DNA of 64,000 nt from positions 1-64,000 of the forward strand of contig PHBZ01000006.1 in assembly GCA_002840755.1 (NCBI GenBank), given 5' to 3'. Source of the stretch: Chloroflexi bacterium HGW-Chloroflexi-10 (GTDB taxonomy: Bacteria; Chloroflexota; Anaerolineae; Anaerolineales; Anaerolineaceae). This document shows positions 7,295-63,982 of the stretch, piece after piece. Both the position numbers and the translations under genes were made by a program. Position 1 is the first letter of the stretch; the number at the start of each line of letters is the position of its first letter. Under the pieces are notes generated by a model. That model was not told where the DNA came from, did not search any database, and was given only the letters and a program-made list of their open reading frames with translations.

Positions 7295-7521
7295 TGATTC
7301 TCCTAATATTATTAAGTTTCTATTGTTTACCACATCAGAAGATTTTATGATGATATCTTTTTATTTTAATCATGGCAAGCATTTTAGCCTTTGGTATTTT
7401 TCCGATGGGATTGATAAATAGAACAGACCGGGCAATATATACCAAATCTATACCCGGTTCCTCCTCTATTTTCATACAATGAAGAAGATAAAAACAGTCA
7501 AATTTTTACAGGAGAACGATT

Positions 7522-50553: not shown

Positions 50554-51315
50554 ATGACAGCAAAGGTGATAACAATTAGCAATCAAAAAGGCGGGGTAGG
50601 TAAAACAACCACCGCCGTCAGCCTGGCACATTACCTGGCGCGAAAAAACAAAGTCTTATTGATCGATCTTGACCCTCAAGGTCAATGCGCAACGAATTTG
50701 GGGATCAAGCAAGAACAAGGAGCGTTTTATTTATTGGTCATCTCTCAGGTATCTGCCAGGGATATCGATTTTATCCATACCCTCACCAGAGAAACCGGCC
50801 GTGAAAACCTGCAAATTATTCCGGGCGATCAAATGACCGGATCAGCTCAAACCACCATCATGGATAAACCGGTAAATCATGTTCGCGAAATTCTCAAGCC
50901 TTTTCAGAATCAGGTTGACTTTATCATCTTCGATACCTCGCCATCATTAGGTGGTTTACAGGAGCGTGCAATCTGGGCAGCTGATGCGGTCATTGTTCCA
51001 TGTGCTACCGAATTTGCATCACTAGAATCGGCTGCCAAAACTGTAAAAACCATGCAAGGGCTGCGTTTAGAAAAAGCCTGGAAGGGTGGCTTATTGGGTA
51101 TTTTGCCCACCTTTTTTGACGATAAAACCCGGGAATCCCGTAACTCAATGAAAGATCTCAAAGAGCAATTCGGAGAAAAAGTAATGCAGCCAATTCATGC
51201 TGCCACCGTACTGCGGGAATGCTGGTCGACCGGTCAAACCATTTTTGAATATGCACCCGACTCTCGCTCTGCTCAGGAGTATGAATTGTTTGCCCAGCAA
51301 GTAAAGAATTATTAG
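50554..51315 (+). CDS. parA: ParA-family partition ATPase
   Basis: The 253-residue ATPase has the deviant Walker A KGGVGKTTTA at residues 11-20, Walker A' LLIDLDPQGQCATNLG, and Walker B IIFDTSPSLG. It lacks an N-terminal helix-turn-helix, so it is the short type Ib-like/Soj-like form. ParA forms dynamic assemblies on DNA to segregate plasmids or chromosomes. An AAAGGAGGATCAT site precedes it. The next gene, 9 bases downstream, is the expected adaptor. Confidence 0.94.
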   Translation: MTAKVITISNQKGGVGKTTTAVSLAHYLARKNKVLLIDLDPQGQCATNLGIKQEQGAFYLLVISQVSARDIDFIHTLTRETGRENLQIIPGDQMTGSAQTTIMDKPVNHVREILKPFQNQVDFIIFDTSPSLGGLQERAIWAADAVIVPCATEFASLESAAKTVKTMQGLRLEKAWKGGLLGILPTFFDDKTRESRNSMKDLKEQFGEKVMQPIHAATVLRECWSTGQTIFEYAPDSRSAQEYELFAQQVKNY

Positions 51316-51324
51316 GTGGGTCCT

Positions 51325-51984
51325 ATGCGTCGAAATGCATTTGCCAGTTTACAAGAAAATGAAATAAACAATTCCATTGCTTCGATTAACTCCCAGGTTC
51401 CAACAATGAACACTATTCAAAAACCAATGAGTGCTTTGGACTTCATTCCATCGGCTGTACCGAAGAAAAAGCGGGATCGAAAATGGGAAAGAGAGAATAA
51501 GGATCAGGTAGCTACGTATCGGGGGATCACGCCGGAGGTTCGTCAATCAATCATTTTGTTGGCTGAAAAACTGAATGTTTCGACTGATGATGTGGCTCGA
51601 GCATTTCTGGAAAATGGGATTGGCCTTTACCAATCTGGTCAAATTGTGCTGAATCCATATCCGAAAGCACAACGCATGACTCTCTTCCCTTCCGAAAAAA
51701 GATCGAAAGGGAAAGAAAACAATGGCTGGCTGCAGGAAGCAGTTCAGATTAGCAAACAAAACGGTAAGCGCAAAAAGAAACAGGATCAAAAAAATTGGGA
51801 ATATCGCGTTTCATATCGCATACCACCCGCCGTTAAAGAAAGCATCAAAACAATTGCCGAAAGGCATACTGTGCCAATCGGCGAAGTCGTTCTCTATTTC
51901 TTTCAGCATGCCTTTGCAGCTTATCAAACTGGAAAATTGGTTCTTTCTCCGCAACCTAAAAACTCGGGAAACACACTTTATTAA
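51325..51984 (+). CDS. ParA partner protein with a duplicated DNA-binding-like domain
   Basis: Start at ATG 51325 has AGGTGGG upstream; a GTG at 51316 is also possible. The 219-residue basic protein contains two similar segments: YRGITPEVRQSIILLAEKLNVSTDDVARAFLENGIGLYQSGQIVLNPYPKA (about 75-125) and YRIPPAVKESIKTIAERHTVPIGEVVLYFFQHAFAAYQTGKLVLSPQPK (about 165-215). Each looks like a strand followed by two helices, as in ribbon-helix-helix proteins, so one chain could carry two halves of the usual dimer. It probably binds a centromere-like site and recruits ParA. Family assignment is inferred. Confidence 0.65.
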   Translation: MRRNAFASLQENEINNSIASINSQVPTMNTIQKPMSALDFIPSAVPKKKRDRKWERENKDQVATYRGITPEVRQSIILLAEKLNVSTDDVARAFLENGIGLYQSGQIVLNPYPKAQRMTLFPSEKRSKGKENNGWLQEAVQISKQNGKRKKKQDQKNWEYRVSYRIPPAVKESIKTIAERHTVPIGEVVLYFFQHAFAAYQTGKLVLSPQPKNSGNTLY

Positions 51985-52061
51985 AAGGAAGAGAATGTTG
52001 TATTCCAGGGTCCAGACAAAATTTTACATCTCAATTTTGGCAATTGGCACTCCGTCAGCGG

Positions 52062-52132
52062 CATTGCAGACGTGCCGCAGACGTATTGTAGACGTTGCCG
52101 CTGACCTTCCCGCTGACGTTGCCGTAGACGTT
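52062..52132 (+). repeat. Tandem ~12-bp repeats between the par and rep genes
   Basis: Six imperfect units with consensus GCCGYWGACGTT run head to tail (CATTGCAGACGT, GCCGCAGACGTA, TTGTAGACGTT, GCCGCTGACCTT, CCCGCTGACGTT, GCCGTAGACGTT). They lie in the 271-base gap upstream of the initiator gene. They could be iterons of an origin or a centromere for the ParA partner. Confidence 0.75.
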
Positions 52133-52255: not shown

Positions 52256-54364
52256 ATGGTCGTTGAAACAAAACAGGAATGGTCAATAGAGAAAATTTGG
52301 GAACACGTTTTATTACAACTTCAATTGGAAATGTCCCGTGTAAATTTCGAGACCTGGGTTAAATCAACCCAGGTAATGTCTTTTGATGGTGAAACTTTAC
52401 AGATAGGCTGTCATAACGCTTATGCTCGTGATTGGCTGGAAAGCCGGATCAAATCCACGGTCCAACGGTTAATCTGCGGAATGGTTAACCAATCCATTAC
52501 CGTTGAATTTTCTGTAATCCATTCTTCCTTGAATGACCAACAGGATAACCCTTCAGGACAGAAAAAACAGAAATCTTTCTGCGACGACAGCCTGATTGAA
52601 TTAGAACCGAAATACGTTTCCTTGCGTGATGCCCTGATTGAACCGGACCGGGTGGTTAAGCTGCCTGCTTATTTTCTTCGCTGGCTGCCGTATGTGGGTG
52701 CAAAAACGATTTTCGAATTGATTGGTTTCTGGCAAGAGTATTATCTGGCCAGCAAGGGCAAACAACCAGCTGGCGGCGAAAAAGTCTCGACAAGGGTTGA
52801 ACGAGTATGTAGTTGGGCTGGTGTGAGTCGCGCACAACTGTTCCGCGACCTGGCATATGGCCAACCATTAGCCTGGTTTCTCAAGAAAATAGAGACCGAT
52901 TTTGAGAAGGACCGCCAAACCGGGCGGGCTAAAAAATCAGCCAATAAATATGCGCTGTATGGAATCCCATTGACACCTGGAGATGCCGAAGACTTAAAAA
53001 CCTACCTCCAACAGAACAACTTCCTGGATGATCCACACCAGGTTCTTCAAACAGCACTCACCCTACAACCCAATAAAATCTTGCAGTATCCGTTTCGTGA
53101 ACCCCCCAATGATTTTTGGAAAATAACTCCTCGGTGGATCACTGTTCACAGTGTTATTGCGGAATTAATTGGACGTCAACCAGCTAGTCAATTGACCGAC
53201 CTGGCTGATCAATTGGCCGACCGGTTATTGGGCCGTGGAGAATTTGTATTGATCCGTTGGTATTTTCTCAACCAATGGTTGCCCATCCTAGGGCATAACC
53301 CGGCAATGTTGGTGATCTTGCTGCGTAACCTGTGCTACTTCAACGATGAGCTGGGAGAAATCCGCGATGATGTCTGGATCGAGAAAGGATACACAGAGAT
53401 CGCCGCTCGACTGGGATTGGAAAACCCGCGCCAGATTCACCAGTGGTTTCCAGCCATGTTTGAACGCGGCGGTCAAACTGAGAGTCACACTGAAAAGACG
53501 GATCGAGAAATTCAACGACGTCAGCGAATCAGAACAGCTTTGCAGAATTTTCTGGAGCGTATTGATTATCGATCCACCAACCAACTTTCGTATGGCTGGC
53601 ATTTCCGGGTGCAACGCATGGATCCGTTAATCCCCGAACATCTGCTGATCAAACAAGCAGCAACCCAACTTCTAGTCCGGGCTGAAGAAGAATTCGTGTT
53701 GGAACAATTGAATGTTTTCTTGGAATGGTTACCGAATGATTGTATTGAGACTCTCAAAATGGACACAATGATTGTTTTGAGACGGTCAAATATCGACAAT
53801 GCTTGTTTTGAGACTCTCGAAAGGCTACTCAATGATTGTTTTGAGATGGTCAAAACACTGCCGAATGGTTGTATTGAGACTCTTTTAAAGACTCTTAAGG
53901 GCTTTAAAGATTCCATTATCAATAAAGATACCATCACCAACCAAGATTCATCTAGAAATCCGCAGGCATTACCAAAAACCGGTTCTGGTGGAGGGGATCA
54001 ATATTTTGATTGGCGGCTGGAAACTTTACTGGCCAATATAAACCCTCAGGCACGCAAGAGTTTACTGCAACAAGAAACCACATCTACCCCTTACCTTTCC
54101 TGGATCCTCTATGGAATCGCAACAGTCACCATTCAGAATCCGGTAAGTTTAGCAATCTCGAAACTTAAAATCCAACCTGGTCGTGGGCCGGGAGGAGCGT
54201 ATGATCGGATCGCCGGTTTGCCTGCTGCGCAATTCATTCAGAACTTGCAAAGTGAGCTGCGCTTTGGGTATGGTTCCGACCTGGACTGGCAAACTGTGTT
54301 TCGCTCTATCCCGTTTGAACGAAAAAGAATGTTGTTTGACATTCTTGGAATCCCGATGAATTGA
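52256..54364 (+). CDS. DnaA_N-domain replication initiator-like protein
   Basis: Residues 1-85 of this 702-residue protein are a DnaA N-terminal domain (IWEHVLLQLQLEMSRVNFETWVKSTQVMSFDGETLQIGCHNAYARDWLESRI), used in DnaA to contact helicase and other initiator molecules. The rest lacks AAA+ motifs. It has helix-turn-helix-like segments VCSWAGVSRAQLFRDL (near 185) and YTEIAARLGLENPRQIHQW (near 385), then a repeat-encoded region (near 493-545) and a basic C-terminal part. Its position after parA, its partner and a repeat array suggests a replication initiator for the island. The exact family is not known to me. Confidence 0.7.
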   Translation: MVVETKQEWSIEKIWEHVLLQLQLEMSRVNFETWVKSTQVMSFDGETLQIGCHNAYARDWLESRIKSTVQRLICGMVNQSITVEFSVIHSSLNDQQDNPSGQKKQKSFCDDSLIELEPKYVSLRDALIEPDRVVKLPAYFLRWLPYVGAKTIFELIGFWQEYYLASKGKQPAGGEKVSTRVERVCSWAGVSRAQLFRDLAYGQPLAWFLKKIETDFEKDRQTGRAKKSANKYALYGIPLTPGDAEDLKTYLQQNNFLDDPHQVLQTALTLQPNKILQYPFREPPNDFWKITPRWITVHSVIAELIGRQPASQLTDLADQLADRLLGRGEFVLIRWYFLNQWLPILGHNPAMLVILLRNLCYFNDELGEIRDDVWIEKGYTEIAARLGLENPRQIHQWFPAMFERGGQTESHTEKTDREIQRRQRIRTALQNFLERIDYRSTNQLSYGWHFRVQRMDPLIPEHLLIKQAATQLLVRAEEEFVLEQLNVFLEWLPNDCIETLKMDTMIVLRRSNIDNACFETLERLLNDCFEMVKTLPNGCIETLLKTLKGFKDSIINKDTITNQDSSRNPQALPKTGSGGGDQYFDWRLETLLANINPQARKSLLQQETTSTPYLSWILYGIATVTIQNPVSLAISKLKIQPGRGPGGAYDRIAGLPAAQFIQNLQSELRFGYGSDLDWQTVFRSIPFERKRMLFDILGIPMN
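53734..53886 (+). repeat. Five ~25-bp direct repeats inside the initiator gene
   Basis: The motif AATGATTGTWTTGAGACTCTC recurs at 53735, 53767, 53798, 53831 and 53864, so the spacing is 32, 31, 33 and 33 bases, about three helix turns. The second copy is out of frame with the other four (read TMIVLRRS instead of NDCIETLK), so the DNA sequence and not the protein is conserved. This is the pattern of an intragenic iteron origin. Confidence 0.8.
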
Positions 54365-54452: not shown

Positions 54453-54911
54453 ATGGCAATTGGAAATATGACATGGAACCGGGGTGATATCACCAACGAT
54501 ATCTATTACGACTTGATTCGGAAAGAGGGGAAACCCGATTTACCGGTAGTGCGATTGATACTAATGATCAATGGATTGGGAGAAGTAAAACCGGTCTATG
54601 GATTGCGTATTGTTGCCTATGGTGCACTGGCTGAATTGGCTTATGGTCACCTTCAAAAGAGCAGCCGGATTGGTATCGAAGGCCATATCCAGATCCGCGA
54701 CCGAGAGGAAGCGGGGTCATTCGCATTTGAAGTTGTCGCAAATCACATTGAATTCATCCGTAATATTAATTACGAACGTGGTAATCAGGTGGTTGCTTCC
54801 CTGCGTAACCGCAACATGGTGCAACCTGCGCCTGGAAAAGAATGGGTATCTATTTCACAAATCACCAGTGCATCCATGCTGGGAGCCAGAAAACCGATAG
54901 TTGTTGAGTGA
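54453..54911 (+). CDS. Single-stranded DNA-binding protein-like (OB fold)
   Basis: The 152-residue product has an SSB-like OB fold: PVVRLILMINGLG, YGLRIVAYGALAELAYGHLQKSSRIGIEGHIQIR and FEVVANHIEFI. The usual acidic C-terminal tip of bacterial SSB (DDDIPF) is missing, so it may not recruit the host SSB interactome. An AAGGAAGGAATTAAAA leader precedes the ATG. It lies between the initiator and a membrane protein in the island operon, and probably protects ssDNA during replication or transfer of the element. Confidence 0.78.
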   Translation: MAIGNMTWNRGDITNDIYYDLIRKEGKPDLPVVRLILMINGLGEVKPVYGLRIVAYGALAELAYGHLQKSSRIGIEGHIQIRDREEAGSFAFEVVANHIEFIRNINYERGNQVVASLRNRNMVQPAPGKEWVSISQITSASMLGARKPIVVE

Positions 54912-63138: not shown

Positions 63139-63982
63139 TATTACCTACTTGCCCAAATTTCATAACTACGTCAGATTTATCATTTCGTGAAACCCCGACT
63201 GAGAATAAATGTAATAGACGTTCTTTTTCTTGATTTAACAAAGATCGAGATTGAATCTTATATTGTGCTATCTCAGATGAATTGGAGAATACCTCATTAA
63301 TATAAGAGAAACCAAACCAGACAATTCCCAATCCGAACAATACTCCGGAAATTAAACGCATCCAGGCATTAAAGGAACCCCAAGCATCTCCAGAATAGAA
63401 TGTATTAACAAAGCGATAGTTGGTTAGGACAGCGAGCCAGGTATTTGAATCACGGAAACCTTGTCCAATTCCGGCCAGATCACTGATGAAATGTGTTGTA
63501 CCATCAACGGCCATTGGTAGAATCAACAGCGCAAGCCCCCACCAAGGCAATGCTTTAATCTTTTTCTTTACCAACCCCCAAAAAACCCCAAATAACCAAA
63601 TGCTGGTAAACATGGAAACCATTCGGTCAGACCAGGCAACTTTCCAACCCATTTGCTCGTTACCCACAAACTGGCGAAGAATAACGATATTATTTGTATT
63701 TTGCCAAGCAGACTGAATCTCAGGAAGGGAGTAAGAGATTTTGGGGCCGAATATGAAATAAGAGCGTTCCGGTAATTGGTGACAGAGGAATGAGTAGACC
63801 CAATATATCGCCTTAGCTGGAATAGTCCAGCCTATAGCCATAAACGCAGGTGCCAGGAACGGAGTCAAAATGTACCCCCCAAATAGAAAACTGAACACTA
63901 AGATCCAGTGCCGGCTCAACCAAAGTACAAATTGATCAGCGTTATTTACAGAAATTGGCGATGTTGCATTGAATGAAGTCAT
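63122..63982 (-). CDS. DUF2085-type membrane protein
   Basis: The 286-residue protein has about seven TM segments. The motif YSFLCHQLPERSYF near residue 85, with the CHQ core, identifies DUF2085, a family of unknown function common in Chloroflexota. A soluble C-terminal tail of about 50 residues follows. It is coupled to the NarL-type regulator by overlap. The gene is near the right edge of the window and appears complete, with a start at 63982. Confidence 0.85.
   Translation of the reverse strand: MTSFNATSPISVNNADQFVLWLSRHWILVFSFLFGGYILTPFLAPAFMAIGWTIPAKAIYWVYSFLCHQLPERSYFIFGPKISYSLPEIQSAWQNTNNIVILRQFVGNEQMGWKVAWSDRMVSMFTSIWLFGVFWGLVKKKIKALPWWGLALLILPMAVDGTTHFISDLAGIGQGFRDSNTWLAVLTNYRFVNTFYSGDAWGSFNAWMRLISGVLFGLGIVWFGFSYINEVFSNSSEIAQYKIQSRSLLNQEKERLLHLFSVGVSRNDKSDVVMKFGQVGNNDGRK

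Follow-up and report, generated by a model that had tools for sequence, protein, structure and literature searches.

Why are five copies of a short repeat kept at near-regular spacing inside a protein-coding gene when one of them lies in a different reading frame, and what would they do there? The question arises from a window of 64,000 nt, the whole stretch of DNA analysed here, which covers positions 1-64,000 (forward strand) of contig PHBZ01000006.1 of Chloroflexi bacterium HGW-Chloroflexi-10 (GCA_002840755.1). Comparison with homologous genes reveals that the array is under selection at the DNA level, and we propose that it is very probably a replication origin, composed of iterons and a melting element, embedded in the linker-coding part of its own initiator gene.

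A repeat array inside a candidate initiator gene

Within the coding region of rep, five 21-base copies span positions 53735-53884, with start-to-start distances of 32, 31, 33, and 33 bp (Table 1). This confirms what had been noticed from the letters alone, except that the array had been started one base too early. The copies differ from each other: copies 2 and 4 end in GACGGTC and GATGGTC, copy 3 carries AATGCTTG, and copy 5 carries AATGGTTG and has GACTCTT at its end. Copy 2 is translated into TMIVLRRS and copy 3, in the other frame, into NACFETLE. With no mismatch allowed, the 6.57-Mb assembly contains the sequence ATGNTTGTWTTGAGA at five sites, all of them within the array, and none of 40 synonymous-codon shuffles of the rep gene reached the observed arrangement.

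Table 1 Features of the rep locus in the window
Feature	Positions	Strand	Frame or basis
ParA-type ATPase	50554-51315	+	Pfam AAA_31, E 4.7e-36
ParB-like partner (putative), 222 aa, two ribbon-helix-helix units by eye, no Pfam match	51316-51984	+	Neighbourhood comparison
Second array of half-sites resembling GCWGACG/CGTCWGC, mostly spaced by 11-13 bp; candidate operator or partition site	52053-52130		Half-site counts
rep, 702-aa initiator candidate with DnaA domain I, a predicted pair of winged-helix-like regions, a linker modelled at low confidence, and a helical C-terminal domain	52256-54364	+	ORF, DnaA_N, structure model, homologues
DnaA_N (domain I) coding part, residues 12-67	52289-52456	+	Pfam PF11638, E 1.8e-9; Foldseek 4tps, E 3.4e-6
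Core (residues 118-470) comprising two similar winged-helix-like regions; presumed to bind the iterons	52607-53665	+	Alignment; model, pLDDT 85
Putative iteron, copy 1	53735-53755	+	Frame 0
Putative iteron, copy 2	53767-53787	+	Out of frame
Putative iteron, copy 3	53798-53818	+	Frame 0
Putative iteron, copy 4	53831-53851	+	Frame 0
Putative iteron, copy 5	53864-53884	+	Frame 0
AT-rich tail containing TTTAAAGA-type repeats; putative DNA unwinding element	53885-53945	+	AT profile and word counts in 71 genes; silent sites conserved
C-terminal helical domain, residues 584-702	54005-54361	+	Alignment, model
SSB-like protein	54453-54911	+	Pfam SSB, E 1.4e-5, 25.5 bits, just under the 26-bit cut-off

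The DnaA_N-type domain ascribed to the host gene in the sequence-only reading is present, and it is the sole Pfam domain of the window protein at both E<=0.1 and E<=1. A model of the full-length Rep reached a pLDDT of 72 and the core modelled alone one of 85; the array maps to the low-confidence linker of the full model. Foldseek comparison of the core model with the PDB and viral models gave no significant fold match (16 matches, best E 1.2), and the assignment of the core as a winged-helix, DNA-binding unit is a prediction from the model. Among 26 aligned members of the family, 22 match DnaA_N at E<=1 and four, including L036 and L039, do not; domain I can thus not be required in every member. 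In nine of the 26 (L042, L044, L045, L046, L053, L059-L062) the DnaA_N-like domain is C-terminal instead of N-terminal and the array is still found mid-gene. This C-terminal placement is based on Pfam for L045 (two stretches), L053, L062, and weakly L046 (E 0.13), on PHROGs for L044 and L061, and on the alignment alone for L042, L059, and L060.

Conservation of the array among relatives

Homologue searches gave matches in 27 of 396 genomes of a class-wide sample, in 73 of 147 genomes of the family, and in 86 of 301 genomes covering part of the order. From these matches 72 homologues were fetched, and the gene set analysed consists of the window gene and 70 others, i.e., 71 genes of at least 400 aa, from which two 232-aa fragments (L064, L065) were left out and in which L056 and L063 are short or cut at contig ends. 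Many of the 71 genes are close kin and not independent (L107 and L108 share an identical array sequence), and the array finder returns the best motif only, so that copies may be missed. Named relatives, at 28 loci in the genome collection, include Longilinea arvoryzae, Levilinea saccharolytica, Leptolinea tardivitalis, Flexilinea flocculi, and the chromosome of Leptolinea sp. HRD-7. Some rep copies are thus chromosomal (3.57 Mb in Leptolinea sp. HRD-7), and such copies are not expected to act as an active second origin.

At least four clustered mid-gene copies that beat all 40 codon-preserving shuffles were found in 61 of the 71 genes; in 52 of these the copies are spread over two or more reading frames, and in nine they all share one. 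Among control ORFs of at least 400 aa from the first locus set, four of 68 had four clustered matches and none had more. Homologues with the same protein and no repeats had been named beforehand as evidence against selection on the DNA. No clear case occurs among the 71 genes, but ten of them fail the array test (L123, L035, L136, L132, L135, L137, L059, L044, L060, L043) and shorter relatives with one winged-helix region have no convincing array. Six relatives from other classes (L193-L198) seem to be of this kind, and four of them do not beat the shuffles. The remaining two beat 40 of 40, L196 with low-complexity DNA at spacings of 57, 45, 96, and 93 and L197 with four copies at 66, 33, and 26.

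The out-of-frame position of copy 2, from which selection on the DNA had originally been argued, is borne out in the close group of 22 genes (window included): none of the 22 has copy 2 in frame, in 21 of them this copy agrees with at least 13 of 21 consensus bases, and repeats 2 to 5 are kept at 31, 33, and 33 bp throughout. The full pattern of 32, 31, 33, and 33 is seen in 18 of the 22, the first interval being 83, 53, and 92 in L114, L120, and L124, respectively. Shuffles are beaten by 21 of the 22 arrays; the array of L123, in which four copies (31, 33, 33) were found, does not pass (10 of 40). Copy 1, and sometimes copy 2, is split by inserts in nine genes (L114-L120, L123, L124). These inserts are in-frame and about 30 nt long (21 nt in copy 2 of L120, both types in L114), are located between AATGATTG and TGAGAC, and have lengths that preserve the frame and are near two or three helix turns. 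We considered the 30-nt inserts as a mobile repeat and rejected this, because a 25-base insert pattern was present once, inside rep, in each of seven out of nine genomes and absent from two, and is therefore not a genome-wide repeat.

More distant groups have other motifs and periods, namely 24/24/23/22/24, 23/22 alternating, 21 and 45 mixed, 33 throughout, 42-45, and 23/31 alternating. The position of the array is conserved: as judged by eye in the 26 aligned members, it follows the second winged-helix region and precedes the C-terminal part, in a segment where the alignment is poor. Of 148 spacings, 60 are not multiples of three (26 distinct spacing patterns, partly from related genes). Across the same 26 patterns the spacings tend to be multiples of about 11 bp (R 0.73; 95% of the null at 0.23-0.24). 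Helical phasing, proposed for the window repeats from their period close to three helix turns with all sites on one face of the DNA, is thus seen across the family.

Silent sites provide further evidence for selection on the nucleotide sequence. We measured pairwise third-base identity at codons with the same amino acid, separately for 4-fold and 2-fold sites. In the close 22, the array had a 4-fold identity of 0.834 and the AT-rich tail one of 0.811. Values for the folded domains and the segment preceding the array were 0.49-0.56, and those for two linkers 0.699 and 0.612. Identity at 2-fold sites was 0.950 in the array and 0.965 in the tail, compared to 0.835 and 0.848 in the two linkers and 0.68-0.75 elsewhere. 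Codon identity alone, the alternative set against DNA-level selection in the sequence-only reading, thus does not account for the array of the close group. Two further groups agree at 4-fold sites (array 0.825 versus 0.634 before and 0.724 after it; array 0.785 versus 0.57), as does a three-member group with few sites (array 0.559, n=34, versus 0.33-0.36). In the group with all copies in frame at 33 bp, 4-fold identity was not clearly raised (0.405 versus 0.384 and 0.359) and 2-fold identity was (0.836 versus 0.550 and 0.522).

AT-rich tail and GC skew

An AT-rich unwinding segment or a skew switch had been suggested as something to look for nearby; an AT-rich segment follows the array, and the skew minimum of one closed plasmid is beside it. 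In 70 of the 71 genes the AT content of the 50 nt past the last 14-base motif is above the gene mean, by 22 points on average, and the words TTAAAGA, TTAAAAA, and CTTTAAA reach 9.1 per kb in the 120 nt past the array versus 0.12 per kb elsewhere in the genes. Low-complexity linker codons may add to this AT signal.

Of 72,556 plasmid records searched, three matched. The only closed plasmid found with a full-length homologue is plas-ZRK (CP069395; 179,736 bp), in which JR338_12790 is located beside parA/parB and contains five copies at 33 bp (106,986-107,146), an array that was reached by none of 100 shuffles. The minimum of the detrended cumulative GC skew of this plasmid is at 107,238, i.e., 92 bp past the array; a random place would be within 300 bp of the array centre with a chance of 0.3%, but the minimum has a bootstrap 5-95% spread from -1782 to +1181 bp and, without detrending, is found at 106,513. 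No other initiator is named in the CP069395 gene table, which may be incomplete, and no other direct-repeat family with more than two copies was found in the 4.2 kb around rep.

Seven open contigs of 56-129 kb, chosen by size and not established as plasmids, had a skew minimum at rep in two cases: at 69,121 in G471:C14, which is 95 bp beyond the rep 3' end with the array about 0.6 kb away, and at 52,535 in G485:C44, within rep and about 1.2 kb before the array. The minimum was away from rep in the other five (G334:C22, G202:C6, G466:C11, G392:C12, G450:C165). The GC skew of the window itself is uninformative; its minimum is at 63,671 in the raw curve and at 7,477 after detrending.

Origin, partition site, or copy control

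It is attractive to interpret the repeats as iterons, i.e., as binding sites for the initiator encoded by the same gene, which together with the AT-rich tail downstream would form a theta-type origin in the stretch that encodes the linker joining the winged-helix core to the C-terminal domain. Briefly, the winged-helix core is predicted to bind the helically phased iterons, and iteron-bound Rep would then open the AT-rich tail. DnaA domain I, N-terminal here and C-terminal in other lineages, might help to recruit the replicative helicase, and replication would initiate at this site.

Partition sites are often direct repeats, and genes for ParA and a ParB-like protein are located directly upstream of rep in the window; the array could thus be a centromere bound by the adjacent ParB-like protein instead of a Rep-bound origin. 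We regard this as very unlikely. In-gene arrays that beat the shuffles also occur where no ParB-like relative adjoins rep at E<=1e-4 (e.g., L037, L140, L036, L038), an origin explains the constant AT-rich tail better than a partition site does, and all 22 close members have a separate array of GCWGACG half-sites upstream of rep. Exact half-sites upstream of rep number 111 in the 22 close loci, with three to seven in each, compared to 2.1 expected from shuffles, and looser ones start at 52053, 52066, 52077, 52088, 52100, 52112, and 52124 in the window. The upstream array is therefore the better candidate for a partition site. It was detected in the 22 close loci by half-site counting; a search for strict periodicity missed it in most loci, with z >4 only for L040, L041, and L135, of which L135 looks coding.

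Iterons that serve copy control exist in known plasmids, and the in-gene array could likewise be an incompatibility locus that titrates or handcuffs Rep, with replication starting elsewhere. The AT-rich tail behind the array in 70 of 71 genes speaks against this, as do the skew minimum beside the CP069395 array and the lack of comparable direct repeats around its rep, and we give it a very low probability. Hardly credible is the explanation that the linker contains tandem repeats at the protein level and that the likeness of the DNA follows from the amino acids. Four of the five window copies and all copies of the 33-bp group are indeed in frame and result in short peptide repeats (NDCFETL), but copies 2 and 3 encode different residues with near-identical DNA (peptides of 11 of the 22 genes; copy 2 is broken by an insert in L120 and L123), frames alternate in L040, L041, and L039, and silent sites are conserved. 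For the window group, the frame and silent-site tests both oppose the protein-repeat explanation; for the 33-bp group with all copies in frame, the evidence against it is less complete. An origin embedded in the initiator gene remains our preferred interpretation of the array.

Relation to known initiators

The four Rep boxes of the RepA_N plasmid pSK41 are located centrally in rep, in DNA that encodes the linker between the N-terminal winged-helix domain and the C-terminal domain, and pSK41 Rep without the linker still rescues replication, i.e., the linker is dispensable as protein (PMC5703833). The window repeats are likewise central in rep and in linker-coding DNA, and a role as origin is proposed by analogy. 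Unlike RepA_N (PF06970), the window family has DnaA domain I, two winged-helix-like regions, and a length of about 700 aa versus 319. The RepA_N domain was absent from the window protein at E<=1 and was not among the families listed (25 of 27) for the 26 homologues at the same threshold. RepA_N entries were also not among the 16 Foldseek matches of the core model, and a shared winged-helix fold may still escape Foldseek. DnaD-like traits of the C-terminus are weak (DnaB_2 at 0.0091 in one of 26 members; DnaD-like phrog_186 at 0.00051 in residues 456-522 of L062) and absent from the window protein.

In the origin of phage lambda, an AT-rich element adjoins the iterons. The window repeats resemble this arrangement in being mid initiator gene and beside an AT-rich element. 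Lambda has four 19-bp iterons, an origin located midway within the initiator gene O, and a separate protein P that brings DnaB (PMC3985674). Helicase delivery by this separate P differs from the window initiator, to which DnaA domain I is fused, and neither Pfam nor PHROGs matched the window protein to a phage O family.

Rep_3 plasmids generally have their iterons outside the rep coding region. The window array shares with iteron plasmids of this kind (F, P1, RK2, R6K class) a small number of iterons in the range of 17-22 bp, but its copies are inside rep and the protein has no Rep_3 Pfam match. For Rep_3 itself, RepE is described with two winged-helix domains (PMC4980987), and the iterons of pSK639 are predicted upstream of the rep coding region (PMC5703833). 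Domain I of E. coli DnaA functions in helicase loading and oligomerisation (PMC4980987). The window protein has this domain in common with DnaA and with phage initiators of phrog_26369 (by Pfam and PHROGs), the latter matched over its last ~80 positions only, and, unlike DnaA, is without Pfam matches to AAA+ domain III and the DnaA-box-binding domain IV. The best reading of these sequence comparisons is that the window family would work like RepA_N of pSK41 and lambda O and falls under neither sequence definition.

The literature covered, largely without subscription journals and partly in excerpt, contained no description of this initiator family, of Anaerolineae iterons, or of the two closed plasmids. 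It is rather probable that the genes represent an undescribed one-gene replicon family of Anaerolineae in which initiator and origin are one reading frame, iteron sequence and period evolve per lineage, and a single gene contains the same iteron DNA in two reading frames. In such a family the helicase-recruiting DnaA domain I would have moved between N- and C-terminus and the embedded origin would have stayed in place, the whole having arisen independently of RepA_N and lambda O. The embedding of an origin in the linker of its initiator would thereby extend to a lineage outside these two. Bacteria of the Anaerolineae group have few genetic tools. Origins of plasmids and integrated elements in this group would become predictable from sequence alone, and a minimal replicon consisting of about 2.1 kb and the upstream region is thus directly testable. 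The family moreover supplies many natural initiator-iteron pairs for studying recognition, and the relocation of domain I amounts to a natural experiment on its function.

Genomic context and shorter relatives

The gene order ParA, ParB-like, rep, SSB-like, orf54916, orf55428 is present in 20 of the 22 close loci. In L112 and L122, the last two or one of orf54916/orf55428 are missing within the fetched stretch; the SSB-like gene has the same position in all 22. Other half-sites were noticed by eye upstream of rep in L125 (GCTTACG), L047 (CCTACGT), and L040/L041 (CGTTCAG).

Relatives of about 300 aa are encoded in 35 of the 73 genomes that gave a match in the family search (e.g., G523:C1:173515 and G404:C97:1563) and match one short stretch only, around window residues 327-390 (query 219-282). 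Only one of them was fetched, the sole relative on AP024711, the closed 212-kb plasmid of Leptolinea sp. HRD-7. It is 295 aa long (L174:7956-8843) and has DnaA_N and, by eye, one winged-helix region; a repeat search of the gene found no repeat family inside. Elsewhere on AP024711, repeats spaced by 50 nt (L174:2388-2562) follow right behind a Soj gene and its following small gene.

Viral contigs scanned with a single protein contained no relative. A close homologue (47%) occurs in a record of a Candidatus Micrarchaeota archaeon (L164), probably on a misplaced contig of a metagenome bin. The TraG-D_C family, searched for as a sign of conjugation, had a match in one of six genomes, on the same contig as rep and 0.8 Mb away. 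Two genomes (G427:C3:1107470, G457:C39:18265) encode a tyrosine integrase upstream of rep, at a distance of about 3.3 kb, and in G427, G455, and G456 about 70-120 kb separate rep from pairs of divergent integrases; rep loci with integrases are possibly integrated elements.
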